In this document: positions 3,453 to 30,995 of the stretch, piece after piece
Numbering within the stretch: position 1 is the stretch's first letter
Layout: each line of letters opens with the position of its first letter
The notes under the pieces: generated by a model
What the model saw: the letters and a program-made list of their open reading frames with translations, nothing else
Database searches by the model: none
What the model was told of the DNA's origin: nothing
DNA from: Pseudomonadota bacterium
GTDB lineage: Bacteria; Pseudomonadota; Gammaproteobacteria; Steroidobacterales; Steroidobacteraceae
Reading direction: 5' to 3'
NCBI GenBank assembly: GCA_947453225.1
Contig: CANGFV010000010.1
Coordinates: 1 to 34,661 of the forward strand
DNA: 34,661 bases
Translations under genes and position numbers: made by a program

Positions 3453-3644
3453 ATGCCCCATGTTAAATGTCCAACCTGTCAACGCGACAGCGAATGGTCA
3501 ATCAATAATCTATACCGTCCTTTTTGTAGCGAGCGCTGCAAGCTCATTGATCTTGGCGACTGGGCTGCCGAAAAACATGCAATTCCGGTGGTTGAATTAG
3601 ATGATGAATCGCAACTACCTGAAGACCTTAAGCCAGCGTCTTAA
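3453..3644 (+). CDS. yacG: DNA gyrase inhibitor / zinc-binding protein YacG
   Basis: YacG is a small zinc protein that binds GyrB and inhibits DNA gyrase in E. coli. This 63-aa protein has the CPTC pair near residues 7-10 and the CSERC pair near residues 26-30, giving the four-cysteine zinc site, followed by the conserved [14 protein letters not shown] block. It starts 6 bp after zapD and is probably in the same operon. Its last codons overlap, on the opposite strand, the end of a broken mutT (3628-3772), so this is where the ancestral yacG/mutT convergent junction survives. Confidence 0.95.
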
Positions 3645-3772
3645 CCAACGCAGCTATTAAAGGTAAGTCTGCCGGAAGTAAGTCAGCGGTATGCAACTCT
3701 GCCACACTGACCCACCGTAGGGCTTGATGATCTAAGGGTTGGGGTTCACCTATAAACTCAGTGACTAGCCAT
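3628..3772 (-). pseudogene. mutT: 3' remnant of mutT (first of three copies)
   Basis: On the minus strand this stretch encodes the last 48 codons of a MutT-like protein: WLVTEFTG, then [14 protein letters not shown] and finally [17 protein letters not shown], ending at TAA (3630-3628). It is clearly homologous to the two intact copies at 7665-8075 and 30577-30987, but more diverged from both at the nucleotide level. Homology breaks off abruptly at about 3772, where the amine oxidase gene begins; the Nudix box and start codon are absent. Its stop overlaps the end of yacG by 17 bp, so this is most likely the original chromosomal mutT, disrupted by the first accessory insertion. Confidence 0.88.
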
Positions 3773-7411: not shown

Positions 7412-7442
7412 TCAATATTTTCGTTCTTAGTTAACACCCACC

Positions 7443-7513
7443 TGTCGTTTAACACGACACTACAGGTACTGTCGCTTTAAACGACACCAGACCAACTGTC
7501 CGGTTTCCGGACA
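7443..7513. repeat. Three 17-bp palindromes at exact 27-bp period
   Basis: Three sequences of the form TGTC-N9-GACA lie at 7443-7459 (TGTCGTTTAACACGACA), 7470-7486 (TGTCGCTTTAAACGACA) and 7497-7513 (TGTCCGGTTTCCGGACA). Their starts are exactly 27 bp apart. The same three in the same order and period occur at 28752-28822, and related single, paired or inverted copies occur at 22134, 22277, 23728, 23758 and 27149. They sit just downstream of the C11 protease stop. They could bind a recombinase or regulator; there is no T-run, so they are poor terminators. Confidence 0.85.
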
Positions 7514-7529
7514 CTTGACCTAACTTTCT

Positions 7530-7664
7530 GCAAACCCTTCTGCCTAGCGTTTGCCTAACATTTGCATAACTCTCTCATTGGTTTTTCTATTTGTTGAGCA
7601 ATGCTTAGACCTGACTTTGACTATCCAAGCCTCCTTGTTCCTCCCTAACATTCGCCTAAACTCC
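7530..7664. repeat. Arm-like repeat sequence downstream of mutT (copy 1)
   Basis: This stretch is closely similar to 28829-28980 and 30439-30576. It contains short direct repeats around the motif TGCCTAAC: at 7541, 7552 and 7563 they follow an 11-bp period (TGCCTAGCG, TGCCTAACA, TGCATAACT), and further variants lie near 7644 and 7654. Together with the following mutT and a secA-tail copy it forms a block of about 590 bp (7530-8118) duplicated at 30439-31030. Phased direct repeats of this kind resemble arm-type integrase sites, but that is inference. Confidence 0.75.
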
Positions 7665-8075
7665 TCAGCCAAGCCTCTTAACTAACGCAGCTATTAATGG
7701 CAGGTCTGCCGGAAGTAGATCAGCCCCATGCAACTCTTCCACACTGACCCACCGTAGAGCTTGATGGTCTAAGGGTTGGGGTGTACCAGTAAACTCAGTG
7801 ACTAGCCATAACTCCAAGTGAACATGTCTGTCTTCATACTCATGCTCACAGCTGACCAAGTATTCAGCACTATTAACTTCTACGCCCAGCTCTTCTAGTA
7901 ATTCTCGCTGTAATGCCGCCAGTGGTGTTTCACCCTGATCTACTTTGCCACCAGGAAACTCCCATCCCCCAGCCATATGCTTCCCAATAGGTCGTTGCGC
8001 AATCAGTATCTGACCTTGCAACGACACCAATGCACCTGCCACAACATGGATGGCTTTTTTGGGTGCATGGGACAT
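7665..8075 (-). CDS. mutT: MutT-family Nudix hydrolase (second copy, intact)
   Basis: MutT hydrolyses 8-oxo-dGTP to the monophosphate and so prevents A:T to C:G transversions. The 136-aa protein carries a complete Nudix box at residues 43-65 (G43-x5-E49-x7-RELLEELGV). It differs from the copy at 30577-30987 at 11 of 136 residues, all in the second half apart from two just after the box glutamate. Unlike that copy it is not preceded by secA but only by the last 10 secA codons (8084-8118), so its ancestral promoter is lost unless one lies in the 8.1-8.27 kb gap. It is probably functional by sequence. Whether this copy or the secA-linked one is older cannot be decided here. Confidence 0.93.
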
Positions 8076-8083
8076 ACTTTAGA

Positions 8084-8118
8084 TTAGTTTTCTAGCGTAC
8101 CGTGGCAATGCTTGTATT
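8084..8118 (-). repeat. 35-bp copy of the secA 3' end (candidate attachment site)
   Basis: The minus strand encodes [10 protein letters not shown] followed by TAA, the last ten residues of SecA. The 32 bases beyond the stop codon are identical to 30999-31030 inside real secA; only the stop differs (TAA against TGA). Homology stops sharply at 8118. Sharp duplication of the 3' end of a conserved gene is the usual footprint of an integrase targeting that gene end, but recombination between related chromosomes could also give it. Confidence 0.8.
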
Positions 8119-8213
8119 GCTACGCGGCTGAATATCCGCTTGATTTTGCTGATGATTTTTCAGCATTTTTCTGCTGCCAAACATCTGCCTAACACTACCA
8201 AGGTCTGTCACCA

Positions 8214-8271: not shown

Positions 8272-8640
8272 CTAATACTCACTAGGCAGCATGGCCACCC
8301 AGTATTGGCCATCCCAGCAGGCGTATAGCTGGATGGTGGGTAGGGGGAAATCTGTGTACTCCACCACCTGACTGGCCAGCTGCCGGTCATTGCCGTCCTC
8401 AATTGATATGTACGCACCCCTGCCCTGTCGCACCATTTTCAGCACAGTAAATCGCTCTGCCTGATGATCTATTGAGACCAGGTGTGATGCATACAAGTCC
8501 AGTAGCCAGTAACAGCTGGCCTGATCAGCCAAGTACTTCACACCCTCAGTCACAATAAAGCGGTTAGTAATCCTGTAGTACTGAGTAGTACCGATAAAAC
8601 TGGCCAGTTCCGTGGCCAGTTGTTCATTGTTGATACCCAT
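8272..8640 (-). CDS. DUF6876 family protein
   Basis: This 122-aa protein resembles the DUF6876 family, often found on plasmids and integrative elements. Recognisable features are the N-terminal FIGTTQYYRI segment, then VTEGVKYLADQASCYWLLDL, and the C-terminal block with YTDFPLPTIQLYACWDG. No catalytic motif or membrane segment is visible, and the function of the family is not known to me. Its ATG overlaps the stop of the upstream DUF6641 gene by one base (TAATG), so the two are translationally coupled. The pairing with DUF6641 supports a mobile-element origin. Confidence 0.8.
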   Translation of the reverse strand: MGINNEQLATELASFIGTTQYYRITNRFIVTEGVKYLADQASCYWLLDLYASHLVSIDHQAERFTVLKMVRQGRGAYISIEDGNDRQLASQVVEYTDFPLPTIQLYACWDGQYWVAMLPSEY

Positions 8641-9071
8641 TAGCGATCAAAGCCACTGCGGATTTGACCCGATACAGCCGTAATCTGCGCATCTAACTCC
8701 CCAGTCAGTATGAGTGATTTGACTGTTTCCAGTGCCGACACCACGCCCGCCATGTCCGCCACTTCGATCGCATTGGCTTTGGCCGATAGCTGAAGCACTT
8801 TCGCCCCGTACCTGACCTGCAAGAAGGTCTTACCGGTATCGGTAAACCACCATGGCTTGATGCGTTTGGTCTTGGTGAACTCCACCCGATTGCCGTTCGC
8901 ATCCCGTGTGGTCTTGGTGCGGGTAGGTGCATAGGTTTCACCCTTACTCAGCGCATCCGCCAGCTTTATCTGTTCCAACAGTTTTTCACACAGCTTGTTA
9001 CGGCGTGTAACGTTCGGTGACCTGAGGGGCTTTTTGGCTGAAACCAGTTTGAGTGAAGCAAGTGTTGTCAT
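8640..9071 (-). CDS. DUF6641 family protein
   Basis: This 143-aa basic protein matches what I know of DUF6641: N-terminal TLASLKLVSAKKP, a central APTRTKTT and KRIKPWWF motif, the block TFLQVRYGAKVLQL and a C-terminal AVSGQIRSGFDR. It is first in a two-gene operon with DUF6876. The start is supported by a good ribosome-binding site (AGGAGA about 5 bases before ATG on the minus strand). Function is unknown; the pair is usually seen on mobile elements. Confidence 0.8.
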   Translation of the reverse strand: MTTLASLKLVSAKKPLRSPNVTRRNKLCEKLLEQIKLADALSKGETYAPTRTKTTRDANGNRVEFTKTKRIKPWWFTDTGKTFLQVRYGAKVLQLSAKANAIEVADMAGVVSALETVKSLILTGELDAQITAVSGQIRSGFDR

Positions 9072-9181
9072 CGGTGTCTCCTGTATTTATTCAAGTGACA
9101 CAACAGTAACTTCGCCTGATAGTGGATACGACCGGAGATAGACCGGCTGATTAGATCAACCTTGAAGTCTTTTGATTTTCA

Positions 9182-10110
9182 TATCAGTTGCCATGGATGG
9201 ACGAGATTGGCAGGCATGGCTACTGATACGCTCATATCAATAATTTACTGCTTTTATTATCACCGGCATAAATACCAGTACAAGTAAGCATAAGGTTGGA
9301 ACGCCGGTTGTGACAGTGCTGCAAACTCCGCTCTGATGTGTGGCGGTACGCAAACGAACCCTTACTGTTCGCCTCATCACTCTACCCAGTGCTTTTCAGT
9401 ACTGGATGCCTGAATGTCGCGCCTATGTCGCAGAAACATTAGTGATGTTGGAATGGTTGTGCGCAGAAGTGCGCAAAAGCTTCAGGTTTGAATGGGTTGT
9501 TCCATATATATGAGAAACAATGCCAGTTCATACCCAAGCTCAAGTGAGTGGGGGACAATTTCTAAACCCACAAACACACCCAATTGGCTGCTGATATAGG
9601 CTGTGGGTGGTGTTGCGTAAGACAAGCATGTAAAAAGGAGATCGCAAAACCTGCCTTTCCCTTGTGCGAACAAGTTGTGTGTATATCAGTTGATGTGAAA
9701 ACACCTCAGCAAGGGGTACCGCCCCTTACTTAAGTCATTGCCATTAAATTGGCATTGGCTTGAGCTTCCTAGCAAGGAGTACTTAAGAAGAGGATATAAA
9801 CACTCAGGTAAAAGCCAATTTAATTCAAATTGACCAATCAACTCCATTCTTATCGAAATGTATAGATCAGATGACCTAAATGCACGAAATGTCTGATGGC
9901 ACGAACGCAAGTGAGTTGCCAGAAGACATTGAGTTGATTGCGCGAAGTGCAATCATATAGCCCAGCCTACACTCACCTGCCATATGGCTATTTGATTAAG
10001 ATGAGCTTGAAATCAACAAGAGCAACTTGTAAGGACGGGTGCGGGCGCTTGAAATGCCAAACTGCATGGTTACAGGACGTTTCCTACTCAATTTACGTGG
10101 GATATACCTA
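9182..10110 (+). ncRNA. Candidate large structured non-coding RNA (family unassigned)
   Basis: This roughly 0.93-kb stretch has no convincing gene, yet it is full of hairpins. Examples: 9182-9195 with 9215-9228 (12 pairs); ACCGGC 9261 with GCCGGT 9302; CATCACT 9374 with AGTGATG 9440, enclosing two smaller hairpins; TGCGCA 9459 with 9469; ACCCACA 9565 with TGTGGGT 9601; AAGGGG 9710 with CCCCTT 9721; and a three-way junction closed by CTTAAGT 9728 and ACTTAAG 9780. Two hairpins end in GNRA tetraloops: CTTGT-GCGA-ACAAG (9660-9673) and 9888-9930. The latter also has two tandem GA/GA internal loops. GNRA loops and GA pairs fix the + strand as the RNA. The architecture recalls ornate phage- or island-borne RNAs such as GOLLD or ROOL, but I cannot assign a family. 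Ends are approximate. Confidence 0.6.
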
Positions 10111-10121
10111 CCGCTTCTGAA

Positions 10122-10151
10122 ATTGACAAACTGTGTCCGTTCGATTACACT
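10122..10151 (+). promoter_or_regulatory. Sigma70-type promoter of the toxin-antitoxin operon
   Basis: A perfect -35 box TTGACA (10122-10127) is separated by 18 bp from TACACT (10146-10151), a 4 of 6 match to the -10 consensus. Transcription would begin near 10158, the GTG of the toxin gene, so the toxin mRNA may be leaderless or nearly so. Confidence 0.55.
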
Positions 10152-10157
10152 GCGGCC

Positions 10158-10451
10158 GTGTACACCATTAAATCACTCCCTGAATTCACGCAATGGCTAG
10201 ACAAACTACCCGACCCCACTGTTCGAGGTATCGTTGTAGCCAGAATCAAGCGACTGGAGCGTGGACTAATGGGAGATGTCGCACCAGTAGGTAATGGTGT
10301 TTCTGAACTGAGAATACATGTTGGCGCTGGGTGGCGTATCTACTTTACGCAACGTGGTACTGAAGTAATCATTCTGCTGGTAGGTGGCTCGAAACGTAGT
10401 CAAGTTCGTGACATAACCAAAGCCAAGACCCTAGCCGACTTAATAGATTAA
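10158..10451 (+). CDS. higB: RelE/HigB-like toxin of a type II toxin-antitoxin system (GTG start)
   Basis: The 97-aa protein belongs to the small RelE/ParE-superfamily toxins of the HigB/phage Gp49 (addiction module killer) group, usually ribosome-dependent mRNA interferases. Characteristic blocks are FTQWLDKLPD, ARIKRLERGLMGDVAPVGNG, VSELRIHVGAGWRIYFTQRG and a C-terminal VRDITKAKTLADL. The start is GTG at 10158; no in-frame ATG precedes the first conserved block. Toxin precedes antitoxin with an 11-bp gap, the order seen in HigBA-type modules. A promoter of good quality sits directly upstream. The exact biochemical activity is inferred from the family. Confidence 0.88.
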   Translation: MYTIKSLPEFTQWLDKLPDPTVRGIVVARIKRLERGLMGDVAPVGNGVSELRIHVGAGWRIYFTQRGTEVIILLVGGSKRSQVRDITKAKTLADLID

Positions 10452-10933: not shown

Positions 10934-12262
10934 CTACGCTGCTTCATCAACCTTTGTCTCAGCGACATAGGCGTTAGGCGCAACTGAATCAAGCAGCGCT
11001 TTGTGACCCAGTAAGAACTCGCGCCAGTTGTCCACTTCAAATGCCTCGCCGATCACATCAATCACATCCAAATACGCCTTGGGTGTCATCTCATGCCGCG
11101 CAACGCCAAATGCTGCCTCGTTTGCCTTCTGAATAGCATCCAGCTGCACATAGACATTGTGATGCGTCAACATATACAGACTCAAGCTATCAAAATGCTT
11201 CTTCGCTGTTTCACCGCCCTTCACGTTCAGGTCCCCCAGCGTCATCACTTCAGCCAGAGGTGAGGACTTATGCGGGAACAGCAATTGACTGCCACGATAG
11301 CGGAAACCCTGCTCACACAACTTTGTCGATAGCTTCCAGCTATTAGGCTCCACCCCCAGCTCAGGCGCCTGATATACCTTCTCATATACCATGGCAGTCT
11401 GAAACGGACTGCTCGAATCATAAGTAACCAGCAACTCTGGATACTGATTACGCAGTGCCTTCTGAATGGCCGTCAAAAATACAGCCCACTTCAGTGATGA
11501 CACACCCAGTGCATGCAGATTGTCTACTCCACCTTCAAATGCACCCCCATCCCGCATCATCAGAATGGTATACAGCACCTGATACAAGCCACCGCGAGCA
11601 CCCGCACCTCCGGCCAGCGACCAGCCTTCGAACTTGTAGCCCTTGACCGCATTCCACCAGTACTCGATTTCAGCAATGTGCACACCTTGTACAACATTGA
11701 TCCAGCGAGTATTGCCTTGGCGGTAGACGTCAATGTACTGCAAGTTATCCACAGTCATGGCCGTCAGCTGCTCGATGCTGCACCGAGCGAAGGGAGACTC
11801 GCCCGTTACAGACTGCGTAATACCCAGCGGCATATCCAGTGTCATGGCATGGGTAGCAAACGATTCTTGCCATGACAGTACCCACTGACGAACATGATGC
11901 GCAGACTCCCAGACTGACACTGCCTCAGTAGCAGGCATATTCGGGCGCAGGTTTTTGATGCCCTTCAGCTTGCCAGTACCCACCTGAAATCCGCCACTGT
12001 CAGCAAGAATCATCACCTTTGACTTGTCTGCACGCGTCACGGCATTGTCCACCCAGCTTCCCACTGTATGTAGCCCTGCCGAGTGCAGTATGTACGGGTA
12101 GTGAAACAACTTGTTACCCTCGTTCCAGAAGATCAAGTCACTGGGACTTAAGTCATCTGGGAAAGGACGGCCAGACTTCACCTCATCCAATACGCCTTTG
12201 GCAAAACTGTCGTTTACTGCCGGTAGATAGATAGCGTTATCTTTAGTGTTAATGTTACGCAT
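10934..12262 (-). CDS. tRNA-guanine transglycosylase superfamily protein, DpdA-like
   Basis: Members of this superfamily exchange guanine for a 7-deazaguanine base, in tRNA (TGT, archaeal TGT) or in DNA (DpdA). Seen here: the hallmark DSGGFQ at residues 88-93, LDMPLG at 142-147, VVQG at 190-193, GGAGARGG at 218-225 and LHALGVSS at 249-256. YDSSSP at 281-286 is in the position where archaeal TGT and DpdA have their nucleophile Asp in a DSxS motif. The bacterial DxxxPTR motif and the CxCxxC zinc cluster are not visible, so it is not a housekeeping Tgt. I start it at the ATG at 12262, which has AAGGAG nine bases upstream, giving 442 aa; this overlaps the upstream 643-aa gene by 8 bp. No preQ0 or queuosine synthesis gene is in the window. 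A DNA-modifying role is inference. Confidence 0.8.
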   Translation of the reverse strand: MRNINTKDNAIYLPAVNDSFAKGVLDEVKSGRPFPDDLSPSDLIFWNEGNKLFHYPYILHSAGLHTVGSWVDNAVTRADKSKVMILADSGGFQVGTGKLKGIKNLRPNMPATEAVSVWESAHHVRQWVLSWQESFATHAMTLDMPLGITQSVTGESPFARCSIEQLTAMTVDNLQYIDVYRQGNTRWINVVQGVHIAEIEYWWNAVKGYKFEGWSLAGGAGARGGLYQVLYTILMMRDGGAFEGGVDNLHALGVSSLKWAVFLTAIQKALRNQYPELLVTYDSSSPFQTAMVYEKVYQAPELGVEPNSWKLSTKLCEQGFRYRGSQLLFPHKSSPLAEVMTLGDLNVKGGETAKKHFDSLSLYMLTHHNVYVQLDAIQKANEAAFGVARHEMTPKAYLDVIDVIGEAFEVDNWREFLLGHKALLDSVAPNAYVAETKVDEAA

Positions 12263-14186
12263 AGAAGTCCACTCCTTCTGATTGATCAACACCAGGAATC
12301 AATAGCTCGCCTTCATGATCTTTTATCGAATGCTTGGCCATGATCTTGTTGATGTACTGCTCCTCCTGTTCTGCCTCATTCAGCTCACGTAAAGTGGGCA
12401 TATATTGACTGAACCCCACAGTCGAACGACGCTTGGCAGCGATGTCATATGTAGGTATCGCAATCAAGTAGTCTGCCGCACTGGTACTGAACGACAATGA
12501 CAACACATACTGATCAGCCTTTACTTGCACGCCACCAATAATAGGCAGGTATGCCAAACCAGCGAGTACAGGCATCAGGTCTTTCGTCAAGAACACTTGC
12601 TCAGTCAGCACGTTTGCTGACAGTCCGTCCCCGTATGAACAAGCCTTATGCTCCTTGAACTCACCACCCAGATACTTATAGCTGAACAACATCTGAGAAT
12701 CGGTGATACGCAGCTTGATCAGCTGATTCGAAGGGCGAACCATATGGGTACCAATGTTATCCAGCCAAGGCATTGCGAATTCATTGCCTACCTGTCCAAT
12801 GAACTCACAGGACACATTTACGCGCTTCTCGATTTGCATATCATAGGCATTGTCATAAACAGGCTGCCCACCATAGCTCCCCGTCTTCTCAATAAACGAA
12901 TGGAACAAGAGCGACATACGCATTGATTCATTTGCCTTGTTCACAAGATCCAAGCGGTGACTGAAAATCATGTTAGGGTCTTCGGTCTTAGGGATCTGCT
13001 CACCTTGCAATGGCTTGTATAAATTGAAATCAACATTACCAACCAAGCGTGTTTCCGCGCTGAATTTGCTGAAGGGAGCCATCACCACGTCGTGATCGAC
13101 TTTCTCAAGTACAGTACCGACGGGGGTCACTTGAGTGACTACCCCTGCACTCAGACCTACTTGGCTTAGCACGAACTGGTTAGACTGACTGATGTGCAGC
13201 AGGCGTGCACGCGCCAGCTTCTGATCATCAGCAGATGAACCCTCTGCATTAATCTCCACCAGCTCAGAATCATTAAGCTTCACATTGATTGGCAGCAGCT
13301 GAGTTCGCAGCGTTTCACATACTGTGCGCACACTCGCAGGCAATGCAGCGAACTGCTTACGATAGGCCGTGACCAGACCTTCGTTGATCAGCCCCTTGTC
13401 TATGACTGTATTCACCACCGAGTACTCGGTGCCATTGCGCTTTACCAGCACATAAGAGTAGCCATCGTCGTTAGCTGCTACTCCACTGCTGAAAGTAGCA
13501 AAGCCAAGAGGCTGATTTTGCGACCAGAAATCACCGGCTTCCTTCGACAGCACTTTGATTTTCTCCTTTTCTTTTATTTCAGGTTCGCCAGCCTTCTTGT
13601 TAGTTTTAACCACTTTGAAACTTACACCTAACTTGGCCAATTCAGCTGACATCGCTGCGTTTTGGTCTGCTTGTTGTGCCTCATGTTCCTCAGCAGCCAT
13701 TTCGTCCACCAACTCCTGATCAAGGTCTACGCTCAGCTCTGCTTTTTTGTAGCTGGGCTTCACCAGCTGAACCAGACCTCCAGACTTTTTGATAAAGCCT
13801 GTCAGTTTGGCCACAGCATCAAAGCGATAAGTCTGCGGATGGCGATTGAATTCATTGTTCAACGCATTCAAAGCACGACTCATCTTATTGCGCTCCTGAT
13901 CGCTCAGTGTTTTGCCAAACATCAGCATCAAGACCGGCGCATAGTTATAGCCATGAGCTACAGCCTGTAGGCGATAGTCCTTGAATTCAGCCAGCACGCC
14001 TTCCAGAAACCCCTCTACAGAGCTGGCCTCCTTCCACCACAGATAAATTTTCGCAAGATTCTCGTATTCCTTATGACGAGTACTTGCCACCAACCGAAGC
14101 ACCTTAGCGCAATCACGCTGCAGGTTATTCAGCTCCCGTATCAGACGATCATGGTCTGATTTCTTTACTTCAATTTCCGCATTCAT
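12255..14186 (-). CDS. Unknown 643-aa protein coupled to the TGT-like gene
   Basis: I do not recognise this protein. The first 170 residues are helical and charged (RELNNLQRDCAKVLRLV, LSDQERNKMSRALNALN). An acidic linker follows near residues 165-215, with a Lys/Glu-rich stretch (EIKEKEKIKV). The remaining 420 residues look like mixed alpha/beta, with a C-terminal strand-rich part (QYVLSLSFSTSAADYLIA). No Walker motif, nuclease motif, cysteine cluster, signal peptide or membrane segment is evident. The ATG is preceded by GAGGG at good spacing. Its stop overlaps the start of the TGT-like gene (ATGCGTAA), implying coupled translation and a shared task. It might supply DNA recognition or scaffolding for the base-exchange enzyme, but nothing in the sequence proves it. 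Confidence 0.85.
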   Translation of the reverse strand: MNAEIEVKKSDHDRLIRELNNLQRDCAKVLRLVASTRHKEYENLAKIYLWWKEASSVEGFLEGVLAEFKDYRLQAVAHGYNYAPVLMLMFGKTLSDQERNKMSRALNALNNEFNRHPQTYRFDAVAKLTGFIKKSGGLVQLVKPSYKKAELSVDLDQELVDEMAAEEHEAQQADQNAAMSAELAKLGVSFKVVKTNKKAGEPEIKEKEKIKVLSKEAGDFWSQNQPLGFATFSSGVAANDDGYSYVLVKRNGTEYSVVNTVIDKGLINEGLVTAYRKQFAALPASVRTVCETLRTQLLPINVKLNDSELVEINAEGSSADDQKLARARLLHISQSNQFVLSQVGLSAGVVTQVTPVGTVLEKVDHDVVMAPFSKFSAETRLVGNVDFNLYKPLQGEQIPKTEDPNMIFSHRLDLVNKANESMRMSLLFHSFIEKTGSYGGQPVYDNAYDMQIEKRVNVSCEFIGQVGNEFAMPWLDNIGTHMVRPSNQLIKLRITDSQMLFSYKYLGGEFKEHKACSYGDGLSANVLTEQVFLTKDLMPVLAGLAYLPIIGGVQVKADQYVLSLSFSTSAADYLIAIPTYDIAAKRRSTVGFSQYMPTLRELNEAEQEEQYINKIMAKHSIKDHEGELLIPGVDQSEGVDFYA

Positions 14187-15647: not shown

Positions 15648-17087
15648 TTACCGCCCTTCCACCCCGAGTAACCTATAGAACTCTAGAACTGCCGTATCTA
15701 CTTTGACATTTCGCATAGCGATGGGTTTTGCCAAAGTAATTCCATCAATGGACTTGGCTCGCGATAGGCCAACATATAGCTGTCCGGCTGCAAACGTACC
15801 TGCACCCAAGTCCAGCGTCAGATGATCTAGCGTTAAGCCTTGAGACTTATGAATTGTGATAGCCCACCCAAGTGCCACAGGTAACTGCTGAAACGTTCCA
15901 ACCTGTTCTCGATCAATTTTCTTATCTTGGTGGTTATAGGTGTACTTAAATTTGTGCCAAGCTTCTTTAGTTACCATCACTACGTTATCGCTTTTGTCCT
16001 TTCTGACCCGAATATGGTCTTCCTCTAAACCCACGACTACTCCAGTGTCACCATTGATCCATTGAGGCTTATTGTTTTTCAGGAAAATAACTTTTGCCCC
16101 AATCTTAAGCTCCAAGCGATCAGGCACTGGCAACTTCCATTGATTGACCGGTACCTGACCTGCAACTGCGGCTTCGTACACACGCAAGTCACCAGACAGC
16201 TTATCTAGTTCGCGTGTATTGATGGACTTGGCAGCGGCATTGGTTGGCACTAAATACACGCCTTTTGACACATCTGTATTGGCACTGTAACAACGACGAT
16301 TAAGCAGCTCTACTGCGGCTTCTGCCTTATCATTTAATCGAATTCGGTTAAGTGCCTCAATAAACTCGCTATCAGACTGCCTTCTAACCTTGGTCAGATG
16401 CACAGGAATGACCTGCTGATCTTGGAATATGTCCGCCGAGAAAAAGTAAGGCGTCTTGTATCTATGCGAGTAAAACACTGCTAATTCCTGACTATCCACA
16501 ACCGGAGGCAGCTGCAATAGGTCGCCGATGAAGATCGTTGGCACACCACCAAAAGGAATATTGTTACGCCTGACCTTTTTTAGAATAGTGCTCATGGCAT
16601 CGACCACATTTGGCAATACCATCGACACCTCATCGACAATCAGATATTTGACGTTTTCTAGAATCGGTCGAGTTCTATCCTTGATGGTAAAGTTCCCATC
16701 TGGATCAATGTGCGCTGGAGGCAGCCCAAAAAATGAATGAATGGTATCGCCATGAACATTGATGGCAGCGATGGCCGTTGGTGCAACTACAGCACAACCC
16801 TGCAACTGCTGGCATAACCATTGGATAAGCGTCGATTTACCCGTGCCCGCCTTACCCGTGACAAATATTGAAGGGCAACCTGACTTGAGTGCCTGCAAGA
16901 TAAACTCGTATTCAGGCAACACCTCAATACCTTCTATTGCTGGCTGATATGAAGTGAAGGTCTTGTCTTCTCGTTTAGCATCCTCAGGCACAATCGCCTT
17001 ACCCAAAGCCGAGAAGTCAGCTGGAGCAGGCGCTTGATCTCCTAGAAATTCCTTGGCGAGTTTATTCACCTTATCCCAAACAGTCAT
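15648..17087 (-). CDS. Pif1/RecD-like DNA helicase
   Basis: This is a superfamily 1B ATP-dependent DNA helicase of the Pif1/RecD2 kind. Walker A is GKAGTGKS at residues 78-85, motif Ia is APTAIAAINVHGDTIHSFFG at 102-121 and Walker B is DEVS at 152-155. Motif III follows as IFIGDLLQLPPVV. Near the C-terminus are ITIHKSQGLTLD and GQLYVGLSRAKS (motifs V and VI). The 479-aa length is that of a compact Pif1 core. It starts 9 bp after the stop of the type ISP restriction gene on the same strand, so the two form one operon, and it may help process cleaved or translocated DNA. That link is inferred from position only. The last residues are VEGR before TAA at 15648. Confidence 0.9.
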   Translation of the reverse strand: MTVWDKVNKLAKEFLGDQAPAPADFSALGKAIVPEDAKREDKTFTSYQPAIEGIEVLPEYEFILQALKSGCPSIFVTGKAGTGKSTLIQWLCQQLQGCAVVAPTAIAAINVHGDTIHSFFGLPPAHIDPDGNFTIKDRTRPILENVKYLIVDEVSMVLPNVVDAMSTILKKVRRNNIPFGGVPTIFIGDLLQLPPVVDSQELAVFYSHRYKTPYFFSADIFQDQQVIPVHLTKVRRQSDSEFIEALNRIRLNDKAEAAVELLNRRCYSANTDVSKGVYLVPTNAAAKSINTRELDKLSGDLRVYEAAVAGQVPVNQWKLPVPDRLELKIGAKVIFLKNNKPQWINGDTGVVVGLEEDHIRVRKDKSDNVVMVTKEAWHKFKYTYNHQDKKIDREQVGTFQQLPVALGWAITIHKSQGLTLDHLTLDLGAGTFAAGQLYVGLSRAKSIDGITLAKPIAMRNVKVDTAVLEFYRLLGVEGR

Positions 17088-17096
17088 CGAAATGGC

Positions 17097-18779
17097 CTAT
17101 ATATCCAACTTGGGTAAACCGTTGACGATCTTCATGGTTTCAAGACTGACGGTAATAACACGCATGAACAGCTCCAATGGATATTTGGGGTTGTGCATGG
17201 TTTCGATTGCCCAGTCATTGGCATCATTAACAATGCCGCTGTCCTTGTCAGTCTTTACACACTGGCGTTCGACTACCCAGTCCAAAGCAGGTTTGCCGTT
17301 GACCACATAGTCATAAGCCTCTAGCGGAATACCGGTCAAAGTAATCCGGTTGTTGTAGTGCATGGTTGTAAGATCTTTATCCTTACCGTTCTTGCCATAC
17401 TTCATTTTTTCTACGCGATAGTCATCATCGGTCAAGGCCGTCTTGCCAGCGATTTCGATTTTCACTGAATAAGGCGTCACAGTTTCATAGTTCAAATGTA
17501 GATCAGCCAAATCGCGGCCTGCCTTAGAGAAATACCAGAAATCTTTGGCGGTTTTTACGGCGGGGATGCGCGGCAATTCTTTACTCAAGTTGTCAGCATA
17601 GCGTTCTCGGTAGTCTGGCGAGTGCAGCAAGCCGTACACGTAATAGAACAGATCTTCCTTGCTGATCTTCTCACTTGGATAAGCATCCTGAAAATGCTTC
17701 AGGCCTTCATCGGTGATGGCATCTTTACGGGCGTAATGACCATTACCAGTGGAAGGCTTCGTCTTTTTGGCAGCGAACAGATCACCAGTGCTTTCTAGCT
17801 CTATTTCGCCTTCATCTTCTGCTGTTTCGTAAATGTACATAGGGAAGCATTGACCTGTGTCAAGAGCATGGAAATTAGGAGGTGTATTTACTACTAATGC
17901 AGAAAATCCACTTCTGGCGCCAATACCCGATATACAAATAAGAAGGTTGCGCGCTGTACTCTGTGGGAATAGTGATGGTATCTGGTAAAGTGAATGGTTT
18001 AGTTGACGGTTGAAATATAACCATTGCTTTGTATACGGCCGATAACTGCTCTGAACTATGTATTCTCCGTTATATTGGATGCTTTTACCTTTCAATATTC
18101 CCTGTTTAAGGTTTACTCCCCAACTTATTTTCTGCGGATCGGTATCGATAAATTTCTCTAATTCTGGTCTTTCCATCTCGGGCAGGTCCTTGCATGCTTG
18201 CGCAAAGCGATCGACTTCCGCAGTATAGAAATCTATTGTTTTTTGTATATTTTTAGCTAACAACGACCGGCTATATTGGTAGCACCATGCATCTCTTGCT
18301 GTATTAACCCCATATGAGAATGTTTCAAAAAGTCGGACTGTTTTTTCACCCTTTTTTGCACCAAGAGGTAGAAAATTATTTGCGCTGTCATCGCGCTGAT
18401 TAAGCCAGTCTCCGTGCTGGTCTGGGGTTACTTTACACAACCGGCTTGTAGGAATTCCATTTATACTGGAATAACTCCTCAAAAGATCTCGCTTTTCTCT
18501 AGAGCTTAGGTCGTCACCTATGTCGTGATAAATAATTTTATTCCCGGACAGTGATGAGCTCTGGTTTTTGACTAAGACGGTAATAGCTATCCCAGTCATA
18601 CTCCCACTATCGAAGACATTACCTCCCTCTTTTGCACGTCCTTTGCTAAGCATGTTTTTACGTATGTCTCCACGCAAATTAACTACATGTATGCTAGTAA
18701 ATTCATCTACAAGACTACGACGCATTCCATCCATTGCAAACTTCTCTATATAGCCCGACCCGGATACAAAACTGATCAC
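17097..18779 (-). CDS. Type ISP restriction-modification enzyme, C-terminal part (split by frameshift)
   Basis: This 560-aa frame encodes the end of the methyltransferase and the target-recognition domain of a type ISP enzyme (LlaGI/LlaBIII kind). It reads VISFVSGSGYIEKFAMDGMR, the block that follows the NPPY motif in full-length homologues, and later FYYVYGLLHSPDYRERYADN, typical of the specificity region. The nominal start is a GTG overlapping the upstream stop (GTGA). However, the same frame stays open upstream to about 18845, where it reads SVYDSYIRAIRWASDRI, the expected family sequence. So the two parts are one gene broken by a one-base shift at 18842-18847. Whether this part is made separately, by coupling or frameshifting, or not at all is open. 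Confidence 0.85.
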   Translation of the reverse strand: MISFVSGSGYIEKFAMDGMRRSLVDEFTSIHVVNLRGDIRKNMLSKGRAKEGGNVFDSGSMTGIAITVLVKNQSSSLSGNKIIYHDIGDDLSSREKRDLLRSYSSINGIPTSRLCKVTPDQHGDWLNQRDDSANNFLPLGAKKGEKTVRLFETFSYGVNTARDAWCYQYSRSLLAKNIQKTIDFYTAEVDRFAQACKDLPEMERPELEKFIDTDPQKISWGVNLKQGILKGKSIQYNGEYIVQSSYRPYTKQWLYFNRQLNHSLYQIPSLFPQSTARNLLICISGIGARSGFSALVVNTPPNFHALDTGQCFPMYIYETAEDEGEIELESTGDLFAAKKTKPSTGNGHYARKDAITDEGLKHFQDAYPSEKISKEDLFYYVYGLLHSPDYRERYADNLSKELPRIPAVKTAKDFWYFSKAGRDLADLHLNYETVTPYSVKIEIAGKTALTDDDYRVEKMKYGKNGKDKDLTTMHYNNRITLTGIPLEAYDYVVNGKPALDWVVERQCVKTDKDSGIVNDANDWAIETMHNPKYPLELFMRVITVSLETMKIVNGLPKLDI

Positions 18780-21700
18780 TCCACTCTCTCCGATTCTGTC
18801 AGATGCCCATCGGATAGCGCGTATATAAGAGTCGTAAACAGATTTTTACCAATAGCTTGAGAAGACGCAGCAACATAAGTGTTTCGAATACGACTATCTA
18901 GATGTGGGTAGCCTAGGTTGTCATTATTGTCGTTCTCACTTTTCTGGCCGACTGAGTAGGGTGGGTTTCCTATAATCACTCGTATATCCAGCTTCTTCTG
19001 CCGCTTACGTCGAGCACTGTTGTTTACCAGAATTTGATCGACCAGATCTTCTTTCTCATACAACTGAAAGGTATCCGTTAAGCAAATGCCCTCAAACGGT
19101 TGATAGTCACCACCAACAATGCTGTGATAGACCGCTTCGATATTGATAGCTGCAATGTAATAGGCCAGCAACACAATCTCATTGGCGTGAATTTCATGCT
19201 TGTATTTATGTGGCAGCTCTTCTGGCTTGATCAGACCGCTTTGTAGCAGTCGCGTGATAAACGTACCTGTTCCAGTAAATGGATCGAGGATGTGCACACC
19301 CTTGCTACCCAAGGTCTGATTAAACTCAGTTTGTAGAATGTGATTAACGCTGTGGATAATAAAATCCACCACCTCTACTGGCGTATAGACAATGCCCAGC
19401 CGTTCAGTCATTTTTGGGAAGGCATTGCGGAAGAACTTGTCATACAGTTCCACCACAATCTTCTGTTTACCTTCAGCGTTAGTAATACCTTCGGCACGAA
19501 GTTTCACGCTGGCATAGAACTTTTCCAGTGTGTCGGCTTCTTTATCTAGATTGTGTTCCTGCAATACATCCAATACACCTTGCATCGCCTGTGACATGGG
19601 ATTGTGCTGTGCAAAGCTATAGCCTTCAAACAAGGCATCGAATACCGGCTTGGTGATCAAGTGCTGCGCCAGCATTTCGATGATTTCGGTATCGCTAATG
19701 CTGTCATTCAAGTCATCACGCAATTCATGGGCAAAAGCGTTAAAGGCTTTCAATTCTTTGGTATTAGCTGGGTTCTCCAAAATACCGGTGATGCGATCAA
19801 TGTGCGTGCGAGCAATTTTGGCAATGTCATTTGCCCAGTCCTCCCAGTGACTGCGATTACCACACTTCTGTACGACCTTGGCGTACAAGGCACGCTCGAT
19901 TTCACCCACTTCAAATTGCAAATCGAGGTTATCTTCCTTGCCGTATTTTTTCGGCACAGGTTCGCCGATAGTAAAGCCACCTTTGGCAACTTCATCTTTC
20001 TTCTTACCGGTGGCTTTATCAGATTTCCTGCGAATTTCATCAGTGATAGCGACCACTTCCATTTTCGACTTGTCATTGCCTGCCAGCTCCAGCTTATTGA
20101 TCATGGCATCGAAGCGATCATCGTGTGAGCGCAAGGCTTGAAGCACTTGCCACACGACCTTATAGGTTTTGTTGTCATCCAGTGCTTGATGGGCTTCAAC
20201 TCCAGCAGGAATAACCACTGGCAAAATCACATAGCCGCGTTTCTTGCCCGGCGCATTTCGCATCACACGGCCAACGGATTGCACCACATCCACCTGTGAG
20301 TTACGTGGTGTTAGAAACAACACAGCATCTAGCGCAGGTACATCCACCCCTTCAGATAGGCAGCGCACATTGCTGAGAATGCGGCAGGTGTTGGCGGGGG
20401 TGTCTGCTTTCAACCACGTGAGTTTTTCTTCCTTTTCGGTGGCATTCATACCACCATCGACGTGCTCCGCTTCGCAGACCAATCGAGCGCCATCTTCAAT
20501 TTCTTCCTGCTCCTGATAAGCCTCTACTACACGTTGGAACATGCCAGCAATTTGCTTGGAGCTGACTTTGTGTACTTTTCCATTATTGTTAGCTTCAATC
20601 ACTTGGCAGAACGCTACTGCACGTCGCATCGGATCGGTGTCACCACTAAGCTCCTCAGCAGTGCCGATCTTGGCTAACGCCTTCCAGCAACCCACAATCT
20701 TGCCAGCGTCGTCAACTTTAAGGCCATTATTTCCATCATCTAGAAGAACTTGCAAACGGCGACTAACATGCATGGCATCTACCGTAAGTACTATGACCTT
20801 GTAATCGCATAACAAGCCACGCTTGACTGCTTCTGAGAAAGTGATGACGTAAAGCTCTTTGCCATACAGCTTTTCATCGTCCATTGAGCAGAGTGCAACA
20901 TTGTCTTTGTCAGCCATTGCTTTGGCCATGTCACCATAGATGCGTGGTGTGGCGGTCATGTACAAACGCTTGGCGGAGCGTAGATAGTTATTATCGTGCA
21001 CCTTAACAAAGGCACTTTCATCTTCATCATCAAAAGTAGCGCCCGTTGTACGATGCGCCTCATCACAGATAATCAAATCGAAATCTGCCATCTTGTGTTG
21101 ATGCTGCGCCTTACTGATTACATCAATTGAATGGTAAGTACTGAACACCACACTCATGTGGCTGCTATCGTGTCGCCTTTCCATTTCAGCAGCGAGGCGC
21201 TTGGGTTCGGTAGTGGCTGGATAACGCAGTTCATGGGCAAATGTTTGAACTTTATCGTCATCCCCTTTGCCTTTTTTCTTACCTACGTCGCTGTCAGAAC
21301 AGACTGCAAAGCTGTGCAACGGAATATCACTTTCCTGCGTCCACTCAGTGAGTGTTTGAGACAACAGCGCCAAACTTGGTACTAAAAACAGTACTCGCTT
21401 GCCTTTACCCGCTACCGTTTCTGCCACTTTGAGTGCGGTAAAGGTTTTGCCAGTTCCACAGGCCATGATCAGTTTGCCGCGACTGGCTTCCTGAAAGCCT
21501 GATTGCACAGCGGTCAGTGCAGTTTTCTGATGCTCACGGAGCTGTTTTTTGGATTTCAGGACAGGCGACTTTTTGGGCTGGTACCTACTCCAGTCAATCT
21601 GACTACTTTCCAGATCGTTCAGATCAATCTTGCTAACTGGTGGATGCTGATCATAAAGCGCCACTTCGGCGTTATCGCTCCAGTTACTTGTTGTAGTGAT

Positions 21701-22039
21701 AATCACCCGATGAGAAAAGGTTTTCTTACCCGAAGCGGTGAAAAAACTGTCTATGTCTGCTTTGACTACCCGATGATTTTCAGCATAGAACTTACACTGG
21801 ATGGCGTGGAACTGATCGGTGGCATGAGTTTTGGCCACGAGGTCTATACCAGTGTCATTTTTGGGCAATCCTTGCAGCTGCGCCCAGTCCGCGTAAGTCC
21901 ATACATCGCTGTATAGGTCACGATAGGTGGCCTCATTCTTCAGGTACTGAATGCACAGCTCTTCGAAGTAAGTACCCTTTTCGCGTTCGGTGACAGCAGC
22001 ATTGCGAAAAGTGGTCAGTAGTGTTTGGAGGGCAGTCAT
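18776..22039 (-). CDS. Type ISP restriction-modification enzyme, nuclease-helicase-methyltransferase part
   Basis: Type ISP enzymes are single-chain restriction-modification proteins of about 1600 aa that translocate DNA and cut when two converge. Here 1087 aa contain an N-terminal Mrr-like nuclease with D66 and Q81-x-K83, a helicase with Walker A ACGTGKT 193-199, DEAH 326-329 and QSVGR 587-591, and an N6-adenine methyltransferase with DPFTGTG 919-925 and NPPY 1025-1028. After K1065 the frame leaves the family sequence and ends in an unrelated 22-residue tail, because of a one-base shift in or next to the T5 run at 18843-18847. The nuclease, motor and both methyltransferase core motifs remain, but the target-recognition domain is in the next frame. 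It leads an operon with the C-terminal part and the Pif1-like helicase. Confidence 0.9.
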   Translation of the reverse strand: MTALQTLLTTFRNAAVTEREKGTYFEELCIQYLKNEATYRDLYSDVWTYADWAQLQGLPKNDTGIDLVAKTHATDQFHAIQCKFYAENHRVVKADIDSFFTASGKKTFSHRVIITTTSNWSDNAEVALYDQHPPVSKIDLNDLESSQIDWSRYQPKKSPVLKSKKQLREHQKTALTAVQSGFQEASRGKLIMACGTGKTFTALKVAETVAGKGKRVLFLVPSLALLSQTLTEWTQESDIPLHSFAVCSDSDVGKKKGKGDDDKVQTFAHELRYPATTEPKRLAAEMERRHDSSHMSVVFSTYHSIDVISKAQHQHKMADFDLIICDEAHRTTGATFDDEDESAFVKVHDNNYLRSAKRLYMTATPRIYGDMAKAMADKDNVALCSMDDEKLYGKELYVITFSEAVKRGLLCDYKVIVLTVDAMHVSRRLQVLLDDGNNGLKVDDAGKIVGCWKALAKIGTAEELSGDTDPMRRAVAFCQVIEANNNGKVHKVSSKQIAGMFQRVVEAYQEQEEIEDGARLVCEAEHVDGGMNATEKEEKLTWLKADTPANTCRILSNVRCLSEGVDVPALDAVLFLTPRNSQVDVVQSVGRVMRNAPGKKRGYVILPVVIPAGVEAHQALDDNKTYKVVWQVLQALRSHDDRFDAMINKLELAGNDKSKMEVVAITDEIRRKSDKATGKKKDEVAKGGFTIGEPVPKKYGKEDNLDLQFEVGEIERALYAKVVQKCGNRSHWEDWANDIAKIARTHIDRITGILENPANTKELKAFNAFAHELRDDLNDSISDTEIIEMLAQHLITKPVFDALFEGYSFAQHNPMSQAMQGVLDVLQEHNLDKEADTLEKFYASVKLRAEGITNAEGKQKIVVELYDKFFRNAFPKMTERLGIVYTPVEVVDFIIHSVNHILQTEFNQTLGSKGVHILDPFTGTGTFITRLLQSGLIKPEELPHKYKHEIHANEIVLLAYYIAAINIEAVYHSIVGGDYQPFEGICLTDTFQLYEKEDLVDQILVNNSARRKRQKKLDIRVIIGNPPYSVGQKSENDNNDNLGYPHLDSRIRNTYVAASSQAIGKNLFTTLIYALSDGHLTESERVE

Positions 22040-22636: not shown

Positions 22637-23206
22637 ATGCCAAAACAAGCACGTACTTTGAATGATCGAGAACTGCAAAAACTACTGGAATTTGTCAGCA
22701 AGAAAAACAACGCACGCAGAAATCGCACAATGATTTTACTCACCCATTTATCAGGCATGAGGATTGGTGAAGTGGCTGCTGTACGTTACTGCGATGTTGT
22801 TGCAGCAGATGGCACGATACGCAGTGAAATCAATTTAAGCGCCAATCAAACCAAAGGCGATCGTGGTCGTACTGTACTTTTGAATGAACGCATGCGTGGT
22901 GAACTAGCTGCTTACGTAGCGGGTCGACGTATTAAAGATACCAAACTCCCACTGTTTCCAACACAGCGCAGTGCAGGATTTTCAGCTAACTCACTGACAC
23001 AGGTAATCAACAGCTTATACAAGCAAGCTGGCTTTGATGGCTGTTCTAGCCATTCAGGAAGGCGTGGGTTTCTTACAAACTTATCCGAAAAAGGCGTCAG
23101 TGCTCGCGTAATGATGGCATTGGCTGGCCATAAAAATATGGCGACCACTCAGCGTTACATTGATTTGAGACCGGGTGTACTTAGAAATGCTGTCGAACTG
23201 ATCTAG
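22637..23206 (+). CDS. Minimal tyrosine recombinase (189 aa)
   Basis: Tyrosine recombinases cut and rejoin DNA through a 3'-phosphotyrosine. This protein consists almost wholly of the catalytic domain, like FimB/FimE, and lacks the usual N-terminal core-binding and arm-binding domains. All active-site residues are visible: R42 (SGMRIGE), K73 (TKGDRGR), H139 and R142 (SSHSGRR), H165 (LAGHKNM) and Y174 (TTQRYIDL). A good ribosome-binding site precedes the ATG. It converges on the small repeat protein with a 3-bp gap. Its location between two palindrome pairs suggests it may act on them. It could be an inversion or module-exchange enzyme rather than an element integrase. Confidence 0.92.
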   Translation: MPKQARTLNDRELQKLLEFVSKKNNARRNRTMILLTHLSGMRIGEVAAVRYCDVVAADGTIRSEINLSANQTKGDRGRTVLLNERMRGELAAYVAGRRIKDTKLPLFPTQRSAGFSANSLTQVINSLYKQAGFDGCSSHSGRRGFLTNLSEKGVSARVMMALAGHKNMATTQRYIDLRPGVLRNAVELI

Positions 23207-23779: not shown

Positions 23780-25072
23780 TCATCCCCCCAACATTGTGGC
23801 CTTGTTCAGTGCTGTAACACTCCGTCCGTAATAGAGCTCAATATTCTGCACACTGGTACCCATATTCCTTGCAATGTCGAACACAGGTACATTTTTCTCT
23901 AACATGCGTGCAGCGTAGAAGTGCCTGAGGCTGTAGAGCGTGTACTTTTCCCCGTACCTGTTCTTATCAGTATCAATGTGTTTTAGGTAGATCTGAAACT
24001 GGTCTATCAGTGTAATGACCCGATTGCCGTCCAACATGCGGAAGAACCAATCAGCCCGGTTTTCATTTTTGGCTTTGCGGTGTGCCCTAAAACTGCCCTT
24101 ATATGACTTTTGGTACTGATTCAGCTCCAATACAGCCTCAATACTGGCCACAGCTGACTTAAGTGGAATAACTACTCGTGCGCCAGTCTTACCTTTGACC
24201 TGTAATTGATAGTTTTTCTGACCATACCCGTCAGTAAAGGGGTGAATATCACTAGTCAGTAAGTTATTGGCTTCGCCTACCCTAAGCCCACTTTTGGCTA
24301 GGATGTCTACATAGTGTCTAAGTAGCTGGCGGTGATAGTGCCGTTCACTATCCCCCTCTGCCGATTTAATCCAAGCCCTAAATCCCCACTGTACCCGTGC
24401 CATTTCACTGACTGTAAAGGCTGGTCTGACTATTCTAGTTTTAGACTTAAAACGCCAAGTCGGTAACTGAGCTTGCCCTCTGTAGCCCCGTTCGTGCGCA
24501 TACTTGAGTAGAGTTTTAGCTAAGGTGATTTCCCATTCCAGCGTCTTGTCGGCCGGATTGGGGCGTGCATTACGAGGCCATTGGTCTTGGGGCTTGCGGT
24601 GATAGTAGTCCCGTCGCCACTGTACGTAGTCCCTCAATACCGTACTGTCTACCCGACCTACCGCCCGACCTCCACAGTACTCCAACCAAAACCGACTAAC
24701 ACGCTTAATTTGCCTCAGCATCCAAATGCTGGTTTCACGTTGGTGTGAATGGTTGACGGGCATTCGTTCACTACGGTCATACTGGGCTTGTCTCAGTGCA
24801 ATGTACTCTTCAATGACCTGACCAAAGGTTTTGGACCTGAGTGGCAACTGTTCGGACTTTCTGAACTCGACTTCATAGTAGAACTGTGAGGCCAGCTTTC
24901 TAGCCAAGTCCAAGTCACGTGTTCTAAGACTACGGTAGAGATAACGGCGATCACTATCAGCCGTATTGATGCGAGCTTGGAAGATACCTTTGCGAGTGAA
25001 GAGAAATAGCTTACCAGCTTCTAAATACTCTTCATGTTCTACTAAAAGACTATCAACAACTTTTTCTAACAT
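23780..25072 (-). CDS. Tyrosine-type integrase (430 aa)
   Basis: This is a phage/island-type integrase with N-terminal arm-binding region (FTRKGIFQARINTAD), a SAM-like core-binding domain near residues 80-195 and a catalytic domain. Active-site residues are R264 (SGLRVGEANN), K295 (KGKTGARV), R383 in YSLRHFYAARM and the tyrosine Y414/Y415 in MGTSVQNIELYYGRS. The usual first His of HxxR is Tyr and the GH before the Tyr is GT, as in a known subset of such integrases. The gene abuts palindromes at its 3' side and the 48-bp direct repeat at its 5' side. It is the best candidate for moving the 19.8-kb segment between those repeats. Confidence 0.92.
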   Translation of the reverse strand: MLEKVVDSLLVEHEEYLEAGKLFLFTRKGIFQARINTADSDRRYLYRSLRTRDLDLARKLASQFYYEVEFRKSEQLPLRSKTFGQVIEEYIALRQAQYDRSERMPVNHSHQRETSIWMLRQIKRVSRFWLEYCGGRAVGRVDSTVLRDYVQWRRDYYHRKPQDQWPRNARPNPADKTLEWEITLAKTLLKYAHERGYRGQAQLPTWRFKSKTRIVRPAFTVSEMARVQWGFRAWIKSAEGDSERHYHRQLLRHYVDILAKSGLRVGEANNLLTSDIHPFTDGYGQKNYQLQVKGKTGARVVIPLKSAVASIEAVLELNQYQKSYKGSFRAHRKAKNENRADWFFRMLDGNRVITLIDQFQIYLKHIDTDKNRYGEKYTLYSLRHFYAARMLEKNVPVFDIARNMGTSVQNIELYYGRSVTALNKATMLGG

Positions 25073-28722: not shown

Positions 28723-28751
28723 TAAACGAGCACACGTACTCGCTTCTCACC

Positions 28752-28822
28752 TGTCGATTAACACGACACTACAGCTACTGTCGCTTTAAACGACACCTGA
28801 ACAACTGTCCGGTTTCCGTACA
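28752..28822. repeat. Second set of three 17-bp palindromes at 27-bp period
   Basis: TGTCGATTAACACGACA (28752), TGTCGCTTTAAACGACA (28779) and TGTCCGGTTTCCGTACA (28806) repeat the order and exact 27-bp spacing seen at 7443-7513; the last has one mismatch in its right arm. They lie downstream of the metallophosphoesterase terminator, within the gap 28673-28995. Confidence 0.85.
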
Positions 28823-28828
28823 CTTGCT

Positions 28829-28980
28829 CAAAACCTTTTGCCTAGCGTTTGCCTAACATTTGCATAACTTGCCCATTAGTTTTTCTACTTGTTGAGCAAT
28901 GCTTAGACCTGACTTTCACTATCCTAACCTCCTTGTTCCTGCTCGTTCCCCACCTAAAGTTCTCAGCTAAACCTCTGAAC
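28829..28980. repeat. Arm-like repeat (copy 2) ending at the last codons of mutT
   Basis: This copy follows 7530-7680 closely, including the three TGCCTAAC-type units. Its homology continues into CCTCTGAAC, the last few mutT codons (compare 30585-30593), and then stops at about 28980, just before the DUF418 gene ends. So a mutT copy was probably removed or replaced here. Confidence 0.75.
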
Positions 28981-28995
28981 TTTTGTTATAAATCA

Positions 28996-30987: not shown

Positions 30988-30995
30988 AGGTTAGA

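Follow-up and report, generated by a model that had tools for sequence, protein, structure and literature searches.

A large pseudoknotted RNA of integrative islands that contains the Polynucleobacter-1 motif as its 5' part in one of two subtypes

Introduction

To our knowledge, bacteria have few large ornate RNAs, whose functions are unknown. A first-pass annotation of a 34,661-nt stretch of DNA (hereinafter, the window), made from its letters alone, placed a further candidate on the + strand, namely, a 0.9-kb, gene-free, hairpin-rich region of a mobile island (positions 9182 to 10110) that was likened to the large RNAs GOLLD and ROOL. The window is a single 34.7-kb contig of a 1.86-Mb assembly in 116 contigs. 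Does this locus encode a structured RNA, how far does such an RNA extend, to which family does it belong, and what might it do for the island that carries it?

Gene content and folding of the candidate region

Besides the gene-free stretch, the island in the window includes genes for DUF6876, DUF6641, a HigBA toxin-antitoxin pair, a PIF1-like helicase, and a type ISP restriction-modification pair, together with several unknown genes. It also has two tyrosine recombinase genes (PF00589), so that integrase genes, as expected of an integrative island, are present. The restriction-modification pair consists of a type ISP enzyme (18776-22039) and a 560-aa protein (17097-18779) with only the ISP C-terminal specificity domain. 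Between the DUF6641 gene and HigBA (from 10158), there is no convincing gene, as the first-pass annotation had it: the open reading frames (ORFs) are short, and Pfam has no match to the longest of them (88 aa, minus strand). The HigBA pair carries its own upstream sequence, since its homology to plasmid copies begins at about 10114. A promoter-like site lies at 10123-10151; in the region, neither such sites (2 vs. 2.5 expected) nor terminator-like sites (1, on the minus strand, vs. 0.8 expected) are more frequent than chance predicts. The coordinates of the features discussed below are collected in Table 1.

Table 1. Features of the RNA and of its genomic neighborhood (positions are those of the window unless a locus is named)
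Feature	Position	Strand	Evidence or remark
DUF6641 gene	8640-9071	-	Pfam PF20346; constant neighbor of the RNA
TAAATA box, possible -10 element	9269-9274	+	Immediately 5' of the conserved blocks
Conserved extent of the RNA, subtype A (~678 nt)	9277-9954	+	First conserved blocks ATACAAATGAG-like (window, AGTACAAGTAAG); last block is the 3' hairpin; true ends inferred
5' domain	9291-9548	+	Alignment A4; middle part is the counterpart of RF01718 in subtype B
Core domain, hairpins H2-H8 and pseudoknot	9566-9771	+	Alignment A3, pair counts
Core pseudoknot, 5' strand CTGATATA	9591-9598	+	Pairs with 9682-9689
Hairpin H5, AAGG-[AGATCGCAAAACCTG]-CCTT	9635-9657	+	Conserved loop is the search motif; invariance partly reflects motif-based collection
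Core pseudoknot, 3' strand TATATCAG	9682-9689	+	Pairs with 9591-9598
Tandem-GA stem of the 3' domain (internal loop UGA/GAA)	9889-9929	+	Strict recurrence test
3' terminal hairpin GATTGC-GCGAAGT-GCAATC	9936-9954	+	Follows the tandem-GA stem in most copies having the stem
rec189, 189-aa tyrosine recombinase	22637-23206	+	PF00589; second frequent island gene
430-aa integrase	23780-25072	-	PF00589; homologs in 9 of the 11 stretches L210-L220
p175 (175-177 aa)	L019, 11263-11790; L023, 9550-10080		TAAATA box precedes the gene

Folding of the region 9182-10110 against shuffled sequences gave z scores of -4.1 on the + strand and -2.6 on the - strand (20 shuffles of each), and the + strand was the most negative fold among 46 of the 68 planned 929-nt strand-windows. 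When z was scaled to a fixed standard deviation of 8.5, the + strand of the candidate (-4.1) was followed by the minus strand of the 929-nt window at 8182 (-3.8) and by the minus strand of the candidate itself (-3.4). In 120-nt tiles, however, the region was unexceptional and the + strand no better than the - strand (mean z of -0.99 and -1.23, respectively, vs. -0.47 and -0.46 for the contig). Because the tiles were unexceptional, a single sequence is insufficient to settle the candidate. No match to the window reached the gathering score of any Rfam family, and the only match over 9060-10200 is of the kind expected by chance (E value of 9.8).

Collection of homologs

BLASTN, the route to homologs that the first-pass annotation had recommended, found none of the region in plasmids or phages and nothing there for two relatives. 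Among 217 genomes of the family and 396 of the order, to which BLASTN only and not the motif pattern was applied, nothing convincing was found: the matches were short, with 35 nt beside a DUF6641 gene (G112) and 26 to 29 nt in two further genomes (G119 and G123). A 34-nt match in a ribosomal protein L25 gene (G234, L006) was dismissed as coincidence. Viral scans with DUF6641 and HigB revealed no relative; of the two HigB loci they gave, neither had a profile match, and one (L007) has, by eye, coding sequence upstream. Pattern matches in viral contigs were not this RNA.

The copies were found instead via a motif pattern. An island protein (10934-12292) used as a query led to related islands in genomes G112 and G135, and DUF6641 led to G190 and others. 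This query, a 452-aa protein, resembles by eye a tRNA-guanine transglycosylase (DpdA-like) and has no Pfam or NCBIfam match; beside it lies a 643-aa protein (12255-14186) without a Pfam family, and relatives of both co-occur in G112 and G135. On the minus strand of the G135 locus (L021), a block in the syntenic place, AAAAGGAGACCGCGAAACC-ACCCTT, is shared with the window (AAAAAGGAGATCGCAAAACC-TGCCTT). When a 17-mer pattern of this block was run over genome contigs, most matches were due to chance, and at least eight true copies were recognized by wider flanking similarity among the 118 loci listed (L046, L047, L094, L103, L104, L133, L134, and L147), with hosts in the Comamonadaceae (Limnohabitans included), Polynucleobacter, and one unclassified Burkholderiales assembly. 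With up to two mismatches, the pattern occurred in 10 of 90 genomes in the genus of Limnohabitans G442 and in 26 of 151 genomes in the genus of Polynucleobacter G443; a reversed control pattern occurred in none of either set.

After deduplication, at least 44 distinct copies were retained, including 18 of a subtype A (the window among them) and 26 of a subtype B, from Polynucleobacter, Limnohabitans and other Comamonadaceae, and the window's own family. Six loci were dropped as duplicate cores (L173, L175, L176, L178, L179, and L194), and L047 was dropped as lying in the same place as L185; L200, L234, and a third copy in G613 stand outside the set, and L215 and L216 show the L134 and L182 copies in longer stretches, so that these copies were counted once. 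The two subtypes have the core motif, the architecture, the pseudoknot, and the DUF6641 slot in common. The subtype A core profile matches subtype B loci (E values of 1e-9 for L245 and 7e-12 for L247), and the subtype A 5'-domain profile also matches L245 (1e-4).

Covariation and strand of the core domain

In the subtype A core alignment (A3; 16 of 18 copies, with L181 and L187 left out as misaligned), the model comprises 50 pairs, of which 91.1% of the cells are paired and 26 pairs are changed on both sides (15.0 in shuffles). The covariation score (0.358 vs. 0.162 in shuffled alignments) was reached by 0 of 500 shuffles, a control that ignores kinship among copies drawn mostly from two genera and collected via the core motif, whose invariance is partly by construction. 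The pseudoknot, in which the H3 loop pairs with the strand that follows GTTGTG, is changed on both sides in 8 of its 9 pairs across these 16 copies. Control structures slid along the same alignment paired 30 to 40% of cells, and over all three alignments they paired 25 to 46%, vs. 91 to 92% in the model.

Subtype B gave a similar picture. Its core alignment (A2; 25 of 26 copies, with L198 left out as incomplete) contains 44 pairs with 91.9% of cells paired; changes on both sides affect 14 pairs and 84 cells, compared with 9.6 and 36.2 in shuffles, and the covariation score was again reached by 0 of 500 shuffles. A count of further pair types was not above shuffles (242 of 500). The equivalent pseudoknot varies from CCACTT/AAGTGG to GCACTT/AAGTGC. 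Helix H7 is weaker in both subtypes, being paired in 71.6% (A) and 82% (B) of cells.

The two alignments also bear on the strand. GU pairs outnumber AC mismatches by 65 to 20 in subtype A and, less clearly, by 28 to 18 in subtype B (other mismatches, 48 and 70), which indicates that the + strand is the RNA, clearly in subtype A and more weakly in subtype B.

The 5' domain and its relation to Polynucleobacter-1

The 5' domain was aligned from 15 of the 18 subtype A copies (A4; L147, L183, and L187 left out). It comprises 37 pairs, with 90.7% of cells paired and 20 pairs changed on both sides (11.0 in shuffles), and its covariation score was likewise reached by 0 of 500 shuffles; further pair types were not above shuffles (452 of 500), and a second pseudoknot proposed in this domain is only 66% paired. 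The profile of the domain matches the window at 9238-9568 with an E value of 5e-58, the window itself being part of the profile.

Part of this domain has a counterpart in Rfam, homologous in position and fold. The Polynucleobacter-1 family (RF01718; threshold, 37 bits) does not match the window, and none of the 17 other subtype A loci reached the threshold, the one match among them (L177; 31.4 bits) lying at the equivalent place. Above-threshold matches were found in all 20 subtype B loci scanned (53 to 104 bits) and in L184, and each of them falls in the 5' domain. The one subtype B copy that is interrupted (L021) had no match at the gathering score, and 4 of the 26 subtype B copies (L046, L094, L198, and L208) were outside the scan. 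In seven whole genomes picked for holding the core, 10 of 10 RF01718 matches lie 121 to 139 nt upstream of a core motif, with one extra core (the third copy of G613) lacking a match, and 14 control genomes had no RF01718 match. Because each of the 10 matches precedes a core in this way, the two domains form one unit. Polynucleobacter-1 hence represents the 5' domain of subtype B and not a complete RNA: RF01718 covers 141 nt, whereas we estimate the whole RNA at roughly 550 to 680 nt. The first-pass reader had recognized no known family, which holds for the window itself but not for its sister subtype. The window RNA is a new subtype that greatly extends a family of which little has been described, and not an RNA of unprecedented kind; in the open-access PMC literature, Polynucleobacter-1 is named only in PMC2864571.

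The 3' domain, absence of a reading frame, and extent of the RNA

The stem with two GA internal loops that had been described toward the 3' end is present. Under a strict definition, the tandem-GA stem recurs in 19 of 43 copies, the window included (L198 had too little sequence), whereas 20 shuffles averaged 0.5 and never exceeded 2; among the 19, the match in L177 looks like one due to chance. The outer arms vary among copies (GTGAT/ATCAC, TGTGT/ACACA, GTGCT/AGCAC, GTTTC/GAAAC, and ATGTC/GACAT). A K-turn reading of the stem was rejected, as the bulge does not fit by eye. Other details of the original description fared less well. The GNRA loops GCGA and GCAA are present as described, but GCGA is not conserved, other copies having, for example, UUAAAU, UUCAAU, or GUAA in that hairpin, and the three-way junction closed by CTTAAGT/ACTTAAG is not conserved either, the AAGT of those letters belonging to hairpin H8.

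No conserved reading frame was seen among the homologs: the median longest open run is 82.5 aa over 42 copies, vs. 72.75 aa in shuffled sequences, and two spacer lengths are distributed over all three frames. A conserved small ORF was rejected on this basis.

The proposed extent of 9182 to 10110 proved too wide. Conservation sets in with the TAAATA box and continues into ATACAAATGAG-like sequence (together, window 9269-9290), whereas 5' of the box the sequence is variable. The box occurs in 31 of 32 aligned copies, L177 having TAAGTA. Conservation stops after the hairpin that ends at 9954, so that the first hairpin originally described (9182-9228) and all sequence past 9954 fall outside the conserved RNA. 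A promoter scan of the RNA ends gave no sigma-70 consensus match at the TAAATA box, and a terminator scan gave no intrinsic terminator on the + strand.

These results show that a large structured RNA, with multiple domains and at least one pseudoknot, is encoded at window positions 9277-9954 (+), and that the candidate is real and not a chance collection of hairpins. The first-pass proposal, in which a mobile island carries a large and ornate RNA on the + strand, is supported by the covariation found in the core and 5' domains, which was the test named in the proposal, by the balance of GU pairs and AC mismatches, and by the lack of a conserved reading frame among the homologs.

Genomic neighborhood of the RNA

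The constant neighbor of the RNA is DUF6641, which lies within 3 kb in 42 of the 44 copies and is divergently oriented in 39. Of the remaining two, L094 has DUF6641 at 0.85 kb in a larger stretch (L212), and the sequence of L187 is short. A rec189 homolog is found in 30 of the 44 loci, several of the others being short stretches. Across 11 larger stretches (L210-L220), DUF6641 is present in 11, rec189 in 10, and an integrase of 408 to 469 aa in 9, and the cargo is variable, including AAA ATPases in L212, L216, and L219. In most copies, the RNA family thus sits between DUF6641 and a small tyrosine recombinase gene in betaproteobacterial integrative islands.

Several observations concern the islands themselves. 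In the window, a mutT (NUDIX) repeat is found at 7531-8121 and 30443-31033 (591 nt, 91.5% identical in DNA), and additional mutT 3'-end fragments or repeats lie at 3631-3772, 7439-7683, and 28748-28981; the arrangement has the appearance of islands inserted one behind another at a mutT integration site. Paired copies in the same orientation on one contig were seen in Limnohabitans (L103 and L147, ~15.8 kb apart) and in a Comamonadaceae assembly (L094 and L046, ~8.9 kb apart), which suggests neighboring islands. Near an RNA-bearing island, L217 has a group I intron match at 19172-19430 (RF00028; 54.6 bits).

The RNA is not universal in the islands. Among the 151 Polynucleobacter-genus genomes, DUF6641 is present in 81 and the core motif in 26, and at 21 DUF6641 loci without the full RNA, other ORFs occupy the slot; an accessory or cargo role is therefore possible. 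The G135 copy (L021) is a natural disruption of the RNA, with a transposase-bearing insertion at ~16880-18090 between the 5' domain (18276-18093) and the core (16787 onward).

Possible roles

GOLLD and ROOL are typically borne by phages or prophages, often near a tRNA cluster. The window RNA is like them in being large, ornate, and non-coding, in having pseudoknots, and in residing on mobile DNA. It differs in that the window has no Rfam match to either family and no tRNA genes, and in that the RNA was not found in the phage or viral collections searched. Solved examples of the two families measure 659 and 833 nt, form RNA-only particles, and have no known function, as described in PMC12286853. 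Long, abundant non-coding transcripts are described for the phage ICP1 and the phage satellite PLE (PMC7567579), and the likeness of these to the window RNA is one of description. STAXI, as described in PMC2864571, is a pseudoknot motif that lies close to genes whose products handle DNA, XerDC-type integrases among them; unlike the window RNA, it is a short motif of Enterobacteriales that is repeated twice or three times, and it has no Rfam match in the window. The window RNA is probably a free-standing RNA of a mobile element, comparable to GOLLD or ROOL.

The best explanation, which taken as a whole we judge somewhat probable, is that 9277-9954 (+) is a structured, island-borne RNA that would be transcribed from a promoter of its own as a free-standing RNA, and not as the leader of a neighboring gene. 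It may act in trans at some stage of the island's life cycle (excision, replication, or transfer), either as a folded RNA or as a scaffold of RNA and protein, much as GOLLD and ROOL do in broad terms.

The alternative that fares best, although we regard it as unlikely, is an RNA with a function in regulation or replication (antisense, primer, or copy-number control), which would govern the copy number or transfer of the island. The case for it involves p175, a protein of ~175 to 185 aa whose gene adjoins DUF6641 in the same slot of the islands in G112 and G190. Profile search did not find the RNA core in those stretches (20 kb and 19 kb, respectively). Strong p175 matches occur in 7 of the 151 Polynucleobacter-genus genomes, next to a DUF6641 match in 6 of the 7. 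The G112 protein has a HUH-like HLHFAIG motif by eye, the G190 protein has a weak match to the PHROG "replication initiation protein" (E value of 0.0096), and a TAAATA box lies ahead of p175 in L019 and L023 (by eye) as it does ahead of the RNA; clamp-loader-like ATPases in islands L216 and L219 point in the same direction. However, the HUH reading stems from a motif seen by eye in a protein without a Pfam match above the cutoff, unrelated ORFs occupy the slot as well, and three of the p175 genomes (G541, G561, and G606) hold the RNA too, at other places. Known copy-control RNAs are also far less elaborate than the window RNA. The slot shared with p175 makes a role in replication or transfer worth testing, and the other genes found in it weaken that case. 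We consider it doubtful that the RNA represents a further class of giant ornate RNA that, as its own particle or as a ribonucleoprotein, replaces in one lineage of integrative elements the HUH-type replication or mobilization protein of the same slot in sister elements.

Equally doubtful is a single-stranded DNA structure, that is, a folded recombination site or an origin of transfer or replication used by rec189 or a HUH protein. The small tyrosine recombinase gene near many copies and a palindromic TTATTTGG-N-CTAAATAA at the 5' edge of several would suit such a site, but the excess of GU pairs over AC mismatches on the + strand, weak as it is in subtype B, is not expected from DNA folding, and the length, the three domains, and the pseudoknot would be unusual. 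As a repeated cassette recombination site, the palindrome was rejected: the pattern occurs at most twice per stretch and is absent from most stretches.

Slightly less probable still is that the RNA serves the next gene as a leader with cis-regulatory function or as a riboswitch. Table 1 of PMC2864571 (2010) lists Polynucleobacter-1 as probably an RNA and probably cis-regulatory, with an ambiguous riboswitch status ("cis-reg y, switch ?"), and most copies point away from DUF6641 toward other island genes. However, the conserved unit extends beyond RF01718, which is only its first part, and the downstream gene differs between islands, being HigBA in the window and rec189 or cargo elsewhere; together with three copies that are inverted relative to DUF6641 (L103, L147, and L168), this variation speaks against the RNA being the leader of any single gene. 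It is very improbable that the RNA splices or cleaves itself, or is what remains of an RNA that did: size, pseudoknot, and invariant loop sequences would be compatible with this, but the window has no Rfam match to a ribozyme or intron, and no catalytic core was recognized.

Implications for the RNA family

The tentative cis-regulatory label of Polynucleobacter-1 is probably wrong. The 2010 Rfam entry is a fragment of a larger RNA, and the databases had only that fragment. The RNA is now represented by dozens of copies, some of them in named genera (Polynucleobacter and Limnohabitans), and its recurring neighborhood, two subtypes, natural insertion, and sister islands without the RNA make its role testable.
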